Shown here: positions 39,440 through 50,277 of the stretch, piece after piece | How the letters are laid out: every line of letters begins with the position of its first letter | How positions within the stretch are numbered: the stretch's first letter is position 1 | DNA from: Actinomycetota bacterium | GTDB lineage: Bacteria > Actinomycetota > Acidimicrobiia > Acidimicrobiales > Ilumatobacteraceae | DNA: 64,000 nt | Assembly (NCBI GenBank): GCA_009919275.1 | Contig: RGCG01000002.1 | Coordinates: 1-64,000, forward strand | Direction of reading: 5' to 3' | Made by a program: the position numbers and the translations under genes | The notes under the pieces: generated by a model | Database searches by the model: none | The model's input: only the letters and a program-made list of their open reading frames with translations | Told to the model about the DNA's origin: nothing

Positions 39440-40468
39440 TCAGTGGTCGAGGAAGCCGTGGCGGAAGAGCCGCGAACCCGGTGATGCTCCGGTAATGGCA
39501 TCGGCCGCCAAGATGACTGCTGCACCCGTGTAAGCCGTGCGTTCGTCGGCGGGGAACGCAATGCGATCGGGGTAGACGATTCCCGTGAGGTACGAACCGT
39601 CGTCGCAGCGGTGCGCACGCGTCCACGACAACAACTTCACGGCGGTATCGATGTCGCCGAGGGCGGAGTGGGCGAGCGAGCACTCGGCCGTCTCCGCTGC
39701 GGTTATCCAAGGTTCGTCACTCACGCAACGGATGCCGAGACCATCCATTGAAAACGTGTCCCACAACGACGCAAGGCGATCCTTGGCCTGGGATCCCTCC
39801 ATCGTGCCCGTCATGACGGGGTAGTACCAGTCCATCGCCCATCGTTCCTTTGGTTCGAAAGCGGTGAGATCGGTACGCACGACATGGTCGATTGCATCGG
39901 CCGCGCGCAACAGATGATCGGGGTGGTCGTCGACGAGAGCAGCCAACATCGCACCGCAGCGAAGCGAATGCCTGATCGACGACGATCCGGTGAGAAGCGA
40001 GTAGTTCCAGGGCATCTCATCGACCTCGCGGGCCCACAGCACCGTTCCATCGGACTTTCGGTGATTGAGTACCCATTCGAGGGCGGCACTGACGACCGGC
40101 CACAGATTCTTCACCGTGGCGATGTCGCCGGTGCACAACCAGTGGTGCCACAGCCCGGCTGCGACATAGGCACAGACGTTTGTGTCGAGCTTTGCATCTT
40201 CGATGCCGCCGTCGGAGAGGTAGTAGTTGTGCCACGCACCATCATCGCGTTGGGTCGAGGCCAGCCAGTCGTAAGCGAGGCGGGCTTCGCGATGCAGGCC
40301 CAACGTGTCGAGCGCCATCGCGGTTTCGACGTGGTTCCACGGATCGCAGTGTCCACCGTCGAACCAAGGAATCATCCCGTTGGGCAACTGCAAGCGGGCG
40401 ATTGATTCTGCCGTCGCGAGAAGTTCGGCATGGCTGACGACCCCGCTGATGGTGAGATCGTGTTTCAT
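39440..40468 (-). CDS. prenyltransferase-like / alpha-alpha barrel protein
   Basis: Start MKHDLTISG; repeated W-rich helical-barrel pattern. Confidence 0.6.
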   Translation of the reverse strand: MKHDLTISGVVSHAELLATAESIARLQLPNGMIPWFDGGHCDPWNHVETAMALDTLGLHREARLAYDWLASTQRDDGAWHNYYLSDGGIEDAKLDTNVCAYVAAGLWHHWLCTGDIATVKNLWPVVSAALEWVLNHRKSDGTVLWAREVDEMPWNYSLLTGSSSIRHSLRCGAMLAALVDDHPDHLLRAADAIDHVVRTDLTAFEPKERWAMDWYYPVMTGTMEGSQAKDRLASLWDTFSMDGLGIRCVSDEPWITAAETAECSLAHSALGDIDTAVKLLSWTRAHRCDDGSYLTGIVYPDRIAFPADERTAYTGAAVILAADAITGASPGSRLFRHGFLDH

Positions 40469-41214
40469 CGCGATGCCCCAACCGGCGATGCGATGTCGGC
40501 CCGACTGCGGGCGTAAACGACGAAGCTCTTGCCGAGCACCGGACTCAGCACTTTTTCGACGACCTTCATCCCACGGGGCTGGTTGATGATGTCCCATTCG
40601 AGGAAGCGCCGGTAAGCCGTGACGGCTCGGTGTGATTCGTTTCGCGGTCCGACCGCACACCGCAACCACCAGTAGGGACTGTGCAATGCGTGTGCATGGT
40701 GCTGGCCGACGATGTCGAAACCGGCGGTCCGCAATTTTGCCTTCAGTTCGGTTGCCGAGTAGATGCGGACGTGGCCCCCGGGGGATTTCGGCGCGTGGTA
40801 TTCATCGGACAGCATCCAGTTGATCTTCTCGGGAAGCCACGTCGGAACCGTGGCGGCGAGGACTCCACCGGGCTTCAAGACGCGGTGCAACTCTGCGATG
40901 GCCGCCGTGTCGGAGTCGATGTGTTCGAGCACCTCGGAGGTGACGACACGGTCGAACGTGGCATCGGCGAACGGCAGCCGCGTCGCATCACCGCGCAGGC
41001 ATGCAACGAACCGATCGGGCGCCATTTCGCCCGCCAACGCCATCGCAGCGAAGGTGTTGCGGGTGGCGACGACCTCGTCGGCTGCCCAGTCGAGAGCAAC
41101 GACACGCGCACCGAGTCGGGCGGCCTCGTAGGCATGGCGACCAAAGCCGGCCCCCGCATCGAGAAAGAGTTGACCGGGACTGAGGCCCAGCTTGTCGAAT
41201 CGAACCGTCAGCAT
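40465..41214 (-). CDS. class I SAM-dependent methyltransferase
   Basis: FLDAGAGFGRHAYEAARLGARVVALD; LHRVLKPGGVLAATVP. Confidence 0.9.
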   Translation of the reverse strand: MLTVRFDKLGLSPGQLFLDAGAGFGRHAYEAARLGARVVALDWAADEVVATRNTFAAMALAGEMAPDRFVACLRGDATRLPFADATFDRVVTSEVLEHIDSDTAAIAELHRVLKPGGVLAATVPTWLPEKINWMLSDEYHAPKSPGGHVRIYSATELKAKLRTAGFDIVGQHHAHALHSPYWWLRCAVGPRNESHRAVTAYRRFLEWDIINQPRGMKVVEKVLSPVLGKSFVVYARSRADIASPVGASR

Positions 41215-42491
41215 CAACGTCTCCGTGCGCGATTGTGCGGCATGTCGAGAACTTCGCGGTACTGCTCGACCGTGAGTGCAGCGCAGTGACGCCAGCTCCA
41301 CCTTTCGACGACCCGCCGCCGGCCGTTCGCACCGATGCGGGCACGGAGCTCGGCATCGTCGAGCCCGCGACGCAGGGCTGCCGCGAGTGAGTCGACGTCA
41401 CCGGCCTTGCATTGCAAAACCGTGTCACCGTCGATACCGGTGACTTCTGGGAGCGCTCCACCGTCGGTGGCGACAAGGCAGATGCCGGTGCACATCGCCT
41501 CGATGGCGGGGAGGCTGAATCCTTCGTAGAGACTCGGCACCACCGCGAGTTCGGCTTCGGCGTACAACTCGACGATGCGCTCGTCGGGCACACCCGACAC
41601 AAAGTCGACGTGATCACGCAGGCCGAGAGAGTCGATGAGATCGGCGCTCTTTCCGGGTTTTGGTTTGCCGATGATCGTCAGGCGGACATCACGCTCGGTG
41701 CGCAACTTCGCCATTGCTTCGAGCAAAAAGGACAGTCCCTTCAACGCAACGTCGGCCGACGCCGTGGTGATGAGGTGGCCGGGCTTGCGAGCAACGTTGG
41801 GGATCGGACGGAAGAGGTCGGGGTCGACGCCGACCGGCACGAGACGCATGCGGTCGAGCGACACGCCCATGTCGTCGTGGATGTCCTTGATGGAGTTCTC
41901 ACTGACGACCACGATCCGGGGCATTTTCGAGGCAACCTTGCCTTGCATCTTCACGAACGAATACCAGCGGCTGATTCCGAAGCGCTTGTAACGACTCTTC
42001 GTGTGTTCGAGCTCGAGAGCACGATCGCGCGTGATGGGGTGGTGAAGCGTGACGACGGTGGGAATCATCTTTTCGATTTTCAGGATGTCGTCGCCCAGGC
42101 ATTGGTTGTCGTGCACGATGTCAAAGTCACCGACGCGGCTCTTCAGGGCGCGATAGGCGCGCATGCTGAAGGCCTTGGGTTCCCCGAAGGTTCCCTTCAA
42201 GAAAAGCGCTGCCTCGACGAAGTTCGGCCAGTTCTTCAGTTCCCAGTAGGCGGGGAATCGACCCGGATACTGGTCGTTGAAGATGTCGAGGCTCGGCAGT
42301 TGGTGAAGGGGGATGCGAGGGTCGAGAACCGGGTAGGGCTGGCCGCCGAACACCTCGACGTGGTGACCGAGATCGACGAGAGCCTTGGTGAGATGTCGGG
42401 TGTAGACGCCCTGGCCACCGACGTGGGGCTTTCCTCTGTAGGTGAGGTATGCGATGCGCAACGGCCCACTCGGGTCTGACCCCACTGTCAT
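41214..42491 (-). CDS. glycosyltransferase family 4 protein
   Basis: KPHVGGQGVYTRHLTKAL; VPSLYEGFSLPAIEAMCTGICLVATDGGALPEV. Confidence 0.95.
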   Translation of the reverse strand: MTVGSDPSGPLRIAYLTYRGKPHVGGQGVYTRHLTKALVDLGHHVEVFGGQPYPVLDPRIPLHQLPSLDIFNDQYPGRFPAYWELKNWPNFVEAALFLKGTFGEPKAFSMRAYRALKSRVGDFDIVHDNQCLGDDILKIEKMIPTVVTLHHPITRDRALELEHTKSRYKRFGISRWYSFVKMQGKVASKMPRIVVVSENSIKDIHDDMGVSLDRMRLVPVGVDPDLFRPIPNVARKPGHLITTASADVALKGLSFLLEAMAKLRTERDVRLTIIGKPKPGKSADLIDSLGLRDHVDFVSGVPDERIVELYAEAELAVVPSLYEGFSLPAIEAMCTGICLVATDGGALPEVTGIDGDTVLQCKAGDVDSLAAALRRGLDDAELRARIGANGRRRVVERWSWRHCAALTVEQYREVLDMPHNRARRR

Positions 42492-42533: not shown

Positions 42534-43779
42534 TCACTTCGTGCGTGTTTTCGCCGGCTCTCTGTCATCGAACCGACGCATGAGCAGGTAGGCAAACGCG
42601 CCAAGCATGACGAGGACAATCGGCATGTCGCCGAGGCGTGAATACCAGGTGCGCCCGGTGCGCAGCGGCACGTCGGCGATGATGACCGCGTCGTCGCCAA
42701 TGCGCGTTCGCGAGACGACGTCTCCTGCATTACTAATGAAGCCCGAGAAGCCGGTCGGCGCCGCCTGGACAACGAATCGCGCCGACTCAATGGCGCGAAC
42801 CCGCGACGACGCGAGTTGCTGTGTCTGCAGAATCGTGCCGCGGTACGAGGATCCGTTCGTCGGGTTGATGACGATTGAGGCGCCGTCCTCGACTCCCTCG
42901 TTGACGCGACCCGCAAAGAAGATCTCCCACGAGATCGCCGTTGCGACACGCACTTCATCGATGGCATCGCCGCTGATGGTGGCCTTGTCGAGCGGAACGG
43001 TGAGTAGTCCCCTCGACGTGCCGGAAACTGCATCGGTGGGCACTTGATCAACCGGTGCACCAATCGCGCGCAGGACCCCGCGCATCGGGATGTACTCGCC
43101 AAACGGGACACGGCGCACCTTGTCGTATTGATCGCCGATCGACCCGTCGGGCATCACGACGACTTGGCGGTTCGTGAAACGACCCGGGCCGGCGTCTTGT
43201 GTGACTCCGACAAGGAACGGAACGTCGAGTCGCCCAGCCTCAGCGGCGATTTCTGCGTACTCCGGAGAAACTGCGAAGTCTGCGACGTCGATGACGTTTT
43301 CGGGCCAAACCACGAGGTCGACCTTGTCCGACGACACCGATGACCCTGACGAGCGGGACAACGGGACTCTGCGCCTGGGAGATTCCGAGCGACGCAAGCG
43401 GCACACCACCGAACGGCCACGAGAATCGGAGTGCTTCGACGAGGCCGTGCGAAAGCGGTTGCATCACGGCGTGGCGATCGGTGCGCCAAATGACAGCCTC
43501 GGCCAGGCCGTGAAGCAGTGCAAAAAGGATGCAGGCGATGATCCAACCCGGTGCCGAGATGAACCACATCCATGCAGTCGCGGGCAAAAGCCAGCCCAAC
43601 ACGAAAATGGTTGCCAGTGCGAATGCACCACGGCGTGTCTCTGCCTTGCGGCTGATCGTGTGGAACCACGCGAGGCCGAGAAATGCGAGGGGCCACCAAC
43701 CCCACGGGGGCATCGACGCGGCGACAATGAGCCCCGCCGCGAGTGATCGTGTGCCGGCGGGCGCGATGCGACGTGTCAC
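42534..43779 (-). pseudogene. lnt: apolipoprotein N-acyltransferase, disrupted
   Basis: N-terminal TM domain (frame ending GISQAQSPVVPLVRVIGVVG) and nitrilase domain (DLVVWPENVID..., DKVRRVPFGEYIP) lie in different frames with about 100 aa missing. Catalytic Cys position reads Ser (AISWEIFF). Confidence 0.82.
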
Positions 43780-44339
43780 TGGCCGCCGGAGGTTCTCTGC
43801 GAGATCAGCTTTGCGAAGACGACGTATCTGTAGGCAATTGAGTGCGGAGGATGGCAAGCAAAGATTGTGAGCGTCGCTGTGCGTGTTGGCCGCGTGATCC
43901 ACATTGCATCGGGTCGCACCACCTGGCGCTTCGTGATCCGGTACTCGAGAACGCTTTGCTTCTTCCCGGTCGTGGTGACGTAGATGAGGTCGCCGATTGC
44001 CAATTTGTCGATGTCGCGCATCGGGGCGCCGTGGCTGGTTCGGTGGCCGGCGATCACTGCGTTGCCGGGGCGGCCCGGTAGCGAGGTTCCCGGCCACAAG
44101 CCGAGCCCGCGCGACAGAGCGTCGTCATGGATGCCGTAAAGAAGAGGAACGTTCACACCGATCGAGGGGATGTTCACGACGGCCACACTGCGCCCGAGCC
44201 GCGGAACCGCGGTTGCGGTTCCAGCGGCTCGAGTGGCGAGCGTTGGCGTGGGCGCGAAGGCGACTGCCGATGTCGCCAGTGCCGCCGATGTTGCCAAAAA
44301 CAAGGCGAGCCACACCAGCCGGGGTTGGGAACGACGCAC
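43776..44339 (-). CDS. sortase family protein (class E-like)
   Basis: AVIAGHRTSHGAPMRDID and TLTIFACHPPHSIAYRYVV catalytic His/Cys/Arg motifs. Confidence 0.9.
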   Translation of the reverse strand: MRRSQPRLVWLALFLATSAALATSAVAFAPTPTLATRAAGTATAVPRLGRSVAVVNIPSIGVNVPLLYGIHDDALSRGLGLWPGTSLPGRPGNAVIAGHRTSHGAPMRDIDKLAIGDLIYVTTTGKKQSVLEYRITKRQVVRPDAMWITRPTRTATLTIFACHPPHSIAYRYVVFAKLISQRTSGGQ

Positions 44340-49440: not shown

Positions 49441-50277
49441 GTGTCACTGCTCGCAGCCATACCGAGCCCGTCGTCGAACGCGCTCGAGATCGGCCCTCTC
49501 AGACTGAATGCCTACGGGTTGATGATTGCGCTCGGCGTCATCCTCGGTGTGCGCATCGCAGGCAAGGCACTCGAGCGACGTGGCGCGGGAACCAGCGATG
49601 ATTTCGGTGCGGTCGCAATGTGGGCGGTTCCCGCGGGCGTCATTGGTGCGCGGATTTACCACGTCGTCACCGATTGGGACAGGTTCTCCGGAAACATCGG
49701 TGATGTCGTGAAGGTCTGGCAGGGAGGCCTCGGCATCTGGGGCGGCATTGCCCTTGGCGTACCCGTCGGGATGTGGGCGGCACGTCGCCGCGGACTCGAC
49801 GTAGCGGTTGTCGTCACCGTCGCCGCACCGGCGATTGCCGCGGCGCAGGCGGTTGGTCGGTGGGGGAACTGGTTCAATCAGGAACTCTTCGGAAAGCCGA
49901 CGGACCTACCTTGGGCGTTGCGCGTCAGCGATGCGAAGGCAGCCGCCGCGGGTTTCGATCCGGGAACGACTTTTCATCCGACCTACCTTTATGAGTCGCT
50001 GTGGTGTGCGGCGCTTTGCATTGCACTGCTGGCGGTCAACCGCCGTGGCTCACTCAAGCCCGGCCGCGTGTTTTGGCTCTACGCCGCGGGGTACACGCTC
50101 ATGCGTTTCTTCATCGAGGGATTGCGTATCGACCGTGCCCACGAAGCCGGCGGGTTGCGGCTGAACCAATGGGTGTCGCTGGTGGTGTTCGTCGTCTCCG
50201 TCGCGCTTTTCGCGGTTCAGGTTCGGGCCGATCGTCGACACGGGTCTAGCGTGGCGATCCATGAGCCCCAGCAGTAG
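49441..50277 (+). CDS. lgt: prolipoprotein diacylglyceryl transferase
   Basis: LRLNAYGLMIALGV; AVGRWGNWFNQELFGKPTDLPW; FHPTYLYESLW. Confidence 0.96.
   Translation: MSLLAAIPSPSSNALEIGPLRLNAYGLMIALGVILGVRIAGKALERRGAGTSDDFGAVAMWAVPAGVIGARIYHVVTDWDRFSGNIGDVVKVWQGGLGIWGGIALGVPVGMWAARRRGLDVAVVVTVAAPAIAAAQAVGRWGNWFNQELFGKPTDLPWALRVSDAKAAAAGFDPGTTFHPTYLYESLWCAALCIALLAVNRRGSLKPGRVFWLYAAGYTLMRFFIEGLRIDRAHEAGGLRLNQWVSLVVFVVSVALFAVQVRADRRHGSSVAIHEPQQ

Follow-up and report, generated by a model that had tools for sequence, protein, structure and literature searches.

The catalytic cysteine of apolipoprotein N-acyltransferase (Lnt) is regarded as essential, and its serine mutant serves as an inactive control. 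Lnt of E. coli and P. aeruginosa (TIGR00546; PDB 5N6H, 5N6M) shares with the proteins described here the two-domain architecture, the fold and the residues Glu267, Lys335, Glu343 and Glu389 (E. coli numbering). The E. coli C387S mutant (PDB 5VRH, 8B0M) has a serine nucleophile within the Lnt fold; it forms an O-acyl enzyme intermediate from which the acyl chain is not passed on (PMC6828757), and only low activity has been reported for it (PMC10313180). A natural Cys-to-Ser change of the nucleophile is present in BCG_2279c (Rv2262c/2261c), the second Lnt homologue of M. bovis BCG, and this paralogue gave no N-acylation of four lipoproteins after the Cys enzyme had been deleted (PMC3850990). Another Lnt homologue, AatD of the Aat system, shows that the acceptor can change (in its case to glycine) and, unlike the Ser-type Lnts (Ser-Lnts), retains the Glu-Lys-Cys triad (PMC7943197). 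Our search of the open-access literature, a scope outside which most subscription papers lie, returned nothing relevant on a Ser-Lnt in Acidimicrobiia or on a serine nucleophile in the nitrilase superfamily. Serine as the sole Lnt of a lineage appears to be undescribed, and BCG_2279c is the only precedent that we found; there the Ser form accompanies a working Cys-type Lnt as an additional copy, whereas in the order examined here the Ser type is the only Lnt found.

We analyzed a 64,000-nt stretch of a genome of the Ilumatobacteraceae (hereafter, the window), whose lnt region is summarized in Table 1. As the initial annotation had proposed, the membrane part and the nitrilase domain (Pfam CN_hydrolase, 4.7e-19) lie in different minus-strand frames, whereas in relatives the same succession of LNT_N and CN_hydrolase occupies a single open frame. 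The frame of the membrane part stays open as far as 43240, that is, beyond the joint into out-of-frame bases, and the GTG start codon overlaps the stop codon of the sortase gene. Alignment with the nearest relative confirmed a frameshifting internal deletion; its size, first put at about 100 residues, is 248 nt or about 83 residues, covering the last residues of the membrane part and the first nitrilase-domain strand. Because 248 does not divide by three, the frame is shifted. Only the nitrilase part is matched by TIGR00546 (128.2 bits, below the curated cut-off of 132.9). Its motifs VWPEN (Glu), YDKVRR (Lys), PFGEY (Glu) and AISWEIFF (Ser) preserve the equivalents of Glu267, Lys335, Glu343 and Glu389; at the Cys387 position, the serine read earlier in AISWEIFF was confirmed, and every sampled member of the order has the same residue there.

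Table 1. Features of the lnt region, in window coordinates.
Feature	Position	Strand	Evidence or remark
lnt, serine-type apolipoprotein N-acyltransferase homologue, broken frame	42534..43779	-	GTG 43779 to TGA 42534
LNT_N membrane part, frame 1	43328..43779	-	Pfam LNT_N 2.5e-18
Deletion joint	43327..43328	-	blastn vs L006 and G003:C27; 248 nt absent, present in G003/L006
Remaining nitrilase domain, other frame	42534..43327	-	TIGR00546 profile positions 196-393
Ser codon TCG at the Cys387 position	42929..42931 (+/- few bases)	-	printed sequence; alignment to E. coli Lnt
Sortase gene upstream of lnt	43776..44339	-	Pfam Sortase 1.7e-28; neighbour in many relatives
lgt, intact, member of the conserved neighbourhood	49441..50277	+	Pfam LGT 2.8e-65
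Conserved glycosidase-like protein, methyltransferase and family-4 glycosyltransferase	39443..42491	-	downstream of lnt in most relatives

The serine had been taken as a second, independent lesion. It is, in fact, common to intact homologues and ancestral: Ser occupies the catalytic position in all 81 aligned loci in which this position is readable, and the triad's Glu and Lys are retained as well. Because AISWEIFF was among the seeds of that scan, the count was repeated on whole genomes with the TIGR00546 model, and this unseeded survey found Ser in 50 of 50 lnt genes of the order (27/27 in the family of the window and 23/23 across 17 further families), the 11 genus mates with an lnt among them. 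The final Actinomycetota-wide set of 247 Lnts contains 123 with Ser and 124 with Cys at position 387, and no third residue among the rows kept. Glu267, Lys335, Glu343 and Glu389 are each present in 123/123 Ser rows, and the serine is encoded by TCN in 108 of these and by AGY in 15. A hidden cysteine acting as the nucleophile in the clade of the window was considered and rejected, as no Cys is invariant among its 51 aligned members. These alignments place the window gene in a serine-type Lnt branch whose catalytic Cys has given way to Ser across the sampled order. Two further loci were noted: a Ser-lnt placed inside the order of the window but found in an otherwise Cys-type family (L206, genome G064, family f34), which points to transfer or contamination, and two Ser-type lnt genes in tandem in one genome of family f24 (L211, G063:C7:17572-20649).

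The AF2 model of the protein from the intact relative L006 (pLDDT 89.6, pTM 0.91), whose catalytic-position serine is residue 366, has the Lnt fold, with TM-scores of 0.73-0.80 against Lnt structures. Compared with E. coli and P. aeruginosa Lnt, the consensus of the window's group is Ser387, Gly413 and Gln425, and the window copy has the 248-nt deletion in addition. Position 413, which belongs to a segment (residues 413-416) lining the Lnt cavity near Cys387 (PMC5500890), is Asn or Asp in 115/124 Cys rows vs 2/123 Ser rows. It is replaced by Gly, Ala or Thr in the group of the window (S1), mostly by Glu or Gln in a second group drawn from the same class, and by Thr in f46 and f68. Position 390 is Ser, Thr or Asn in 108/124 Cys rows and mostly Gly, Val, Ile or Ala in Ser rows. 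His425, for which a part in activating Cys387 has been proposed (PMC5500888), is kept in 105 of the 124 Cys rows and in 11 of the 123 Ser rows, all 11 in f46; since the Cys-type clade adjoining S1 already has Gln here, loss of His425 is only partly tied to the serine. Tests on independent pairs gave the expected direction for the link between Ser and position 413, which cannot reach significance on the tree because it comprises only 3-5 independent switches; a statistical proof of joint change was therefore abandoned.

In trees built without the catalytic columns, about five Cys/Ser changes are needed, and a single origin of Ser was rejected by the AU test (p-AU 2.9e-6). S1 comprises the order of the window plus a few second copies and adjoins the Cys-type clade f63/f68/f72/f75. 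Other families of the class and f69/f76/f83, which are joined weakly (76/29), form a group marked by a C-x4-C pair; further Ser groups are f46 and the second copies in f68. These second copies resemble mycobacterial BCG_2279c, which would stand on a separate branch from the group of the window if, as we infer, f68 is its lineage. The C-x4-C pair (CP...C) falls in alignment columns 204 and 209, approximately E. coli 233/238 when counted from W237, a residue named as essential in Lnt (PMC3850990). It was observed in 57/123 Ser-Lnts (L127, L131, L334, f24-f43, f69, f76 and f83) and, among the 124 Cys-Lnts, only in two f38 genes; the pair could form a disulphide or supply a second thiol close to the active site. 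The two Cys-type f38 genomes nest inside the cysteine-pair group and retain its marks, which suggests a probable return from Ser to Cys. As a proven event this return was rejected, given that a Ser-only clade without f38 survives the AU test (p 0.35). Tentatively, and with a little less than even confidence, we propose that at least two and probably three or four Cys-to-Ser switches took place in Actinomycetota, that the products function as the sole Lnt of whole orders, and that they are natural serine-nucleophile members of the nitrilase superfamily, compensated at position 413 and, in one group, bearing the C-x4-C pair beside the site.

Further examination of the lipoprotein pathway confirmed that lgt is intact in the window. 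lspA is also present in the window genome and in 19/21 genomes overall. A second, Cys-type lnt, whose possible existence had been raised in the initial annotation, was sought in the window genome (87.6% complete) and none scored above the family cut-off; four further nitrilase-family genes were found there. Likewise, no second lnt above the cut-off was detected in any sampled member of the order. The conserved neighbourhood of lnt includes lgt (close to lnt in 10 of 53 long loci of relatives), an M48 protease, haem genes, sortase, a glycosyltransferase and a methyltransferase. The glycosidase-like gene downstream has no Pfam match, and its label is our own reading.

In the alignment with L006, the closest relative, the 248-nt deletion is the sole gap; L006 and genome G003, the latter from the genus of the window, have identical lnt genes. 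The deletion has a 2-bp microhomology or overlap (GA) at the joint, and no repeat spans the joint. Between 19.7 kb and 64 kb (~44 kb), the window aligns collinearly to G003 with ~85% identity, and only the lnt gap interrupts this stretch. At ~19717 there is a second break in collinearity with G003, where ~355 nt are missing or unalignable here. The record of L006 (JAGWWV010000001.1) is titled Acidobacteria; this title looks wrong, given the lnt shared with G003 and a gene order that matches that of the window. In all 11 genus mates having lnt, the gene is an uninterrupted reading frame of 496-610 codons with a TIGR00546 score above the cut-off, and no lnt was seen in the twelfth (80% complete). 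The window gene thus has a frame-disrupting lesion absent from close relatives, as a pseudogene should, but not the relaxed selection expected after such a lesion, since its branch shows no clear excess of change. dN/dS between the window and L006 is 0.11 for the nitrilase part and 0.14 for the membrane part, resembling intact pairs (0.07-0.14 among intact relatives), and private amino-acid changes on the window vs the L006 branch number 15 vs 10 and 10 vs 6 in the two halves. Values of ~0.1 in both halves imply that the deletion is either recent or an assembly error; on this comparison, lnt is a gene under purifying selection until recently, or one still so in an assembly that is wrong.

The initial annotation held that two independent inactivating lesions argue against a sequencing error. 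The deletion is indeed there, but Ser stands in intact genes of the whole sampled order, so that two lesions can be given practically no credence; with one lesion remaining, this argument no longer speaks against an error of sequencing or assembly. The initial annotation had itself named homologues with an ancestral and functional Ser as grounds for giving up its view, and the ancestral half of this is what the homologues show. The deletion is known from one draft assembly of 237 contigs with 87.6% completeness and 3.8% contamination, in which an error (e.g. from a strain mixture) could have interrupted a Ser-lnt that the organism retains intact, and the unrelaxed state of both halves and the intact gene in every genus mate having lnt would fit such an error. 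We consider it the less probable source of the gap, although a serious one, given the clean 248-nt gap with its 2-bp overlap, the joint free of a spanning repeat and the otherwise collinear ~44 kb. Moreover, lnt was not matched in 11 genomes of the same order (families f18 and f20), each at least 95% complete, so its loss seems tolerated, and lnt seems to be dispensable and to have been lost more than once in the order. True loss in the organism is thus the probable reading. If the assembly is right, the deletion would inactivate the protein, the N-acylation step would have been lost, and the lipoproteins of this organism would be diacylated. The lesion itself is an ordinary gene loss or an assembly fault.

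As to the intact Ser-Lnts, the reading that we favour is that of active acyltransferases with a Glu-Lys-Ser triad. A re-tuned pocket (Asn/Asp413 lost and His425 usually lost) would allow transfer of the acyl group, and the acceptor would most probably remain the amino group of the diacylglyceryl-Cys on lipoproteins. The O-acyl intermediate formed by E. coli C387S counts in favour of this reading, whereas the absent or low transfer by that mutant and the failure of BCG_2279c count against it. We put such activity, most likely still directed at lipoproteins, at about an even chance, and we lean slightly towards the explanation as a whole, with an active Ser acyltransferase, a re-tuned pocket, lipoproteins as the most likely acceptor and a deletion in the window copy. 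To our knowledge, no activity or lipoprotein chemistry is known for any sole Ser-Lnt. A lipoprotein role is favoured by this being the only Lnt found in the order, by the presence of Lgt and LspA and by a conserved neighbourhood that includes lgt. The same facts speak against a rather unlikely alternative, in which Ser-Lnts are catalytic but deliver phospholipid-derived acyl chains to a different acceptor (a hydroxyl, a glycolipid or another N-terminus) or to water. That alternative draws on the suitability of O-ester intermediates for hydroxyl acceptors, the pocket altered at position 413, the glycine acceptor of AatD (PMC7943197) and the failure of BCG_2279c as a lipoprotein N-acyltransferase for four substrates; the family-4 glycosyltransferase, the methyltransferase and the glycosidase-like gene are conserved neighbours too, adjacency being weak evidence because haem genes are also among the neighbours. 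More improbable still is a non-catalytic role for Ser-Lnts, as scaffolds or partner proteins retaining the fold. The complete or nearly complete inactivity of E. coli C387S and the failure of BCG_2279c to compensate for the Cys enzyme would fit such a role; yet residue 387 is only ever Ser or Cys, all 123 Ser rows keep the other catalytic residues unchanged, and the probable return to Cys in f38, within a Ser clade, would be odd for a dead enzyme. Together with the strong selection, these constraints argue against a dead protein. The E. coli mutant, moreover, differs from natural Ser-Lnts in that it carries one substitution in a Cys-tuned pocket, whereas they also differ at 413, at 390 and mostly at 425.

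These observations also carry a warning, in that the motif alone is no ground for calling Ser-lnt genes dead. In an entire lineage, another chemical group may carry out the Lnt reaction or some variant of it. Lineages that rely on the Ser type would either demonstrate the way in which N-acylation is completed by a serine enzyme or reveal an acyl acceptor new to this fold, and either outcome bears on whether Acidimicrobiia possess triacylated lipoproteins.
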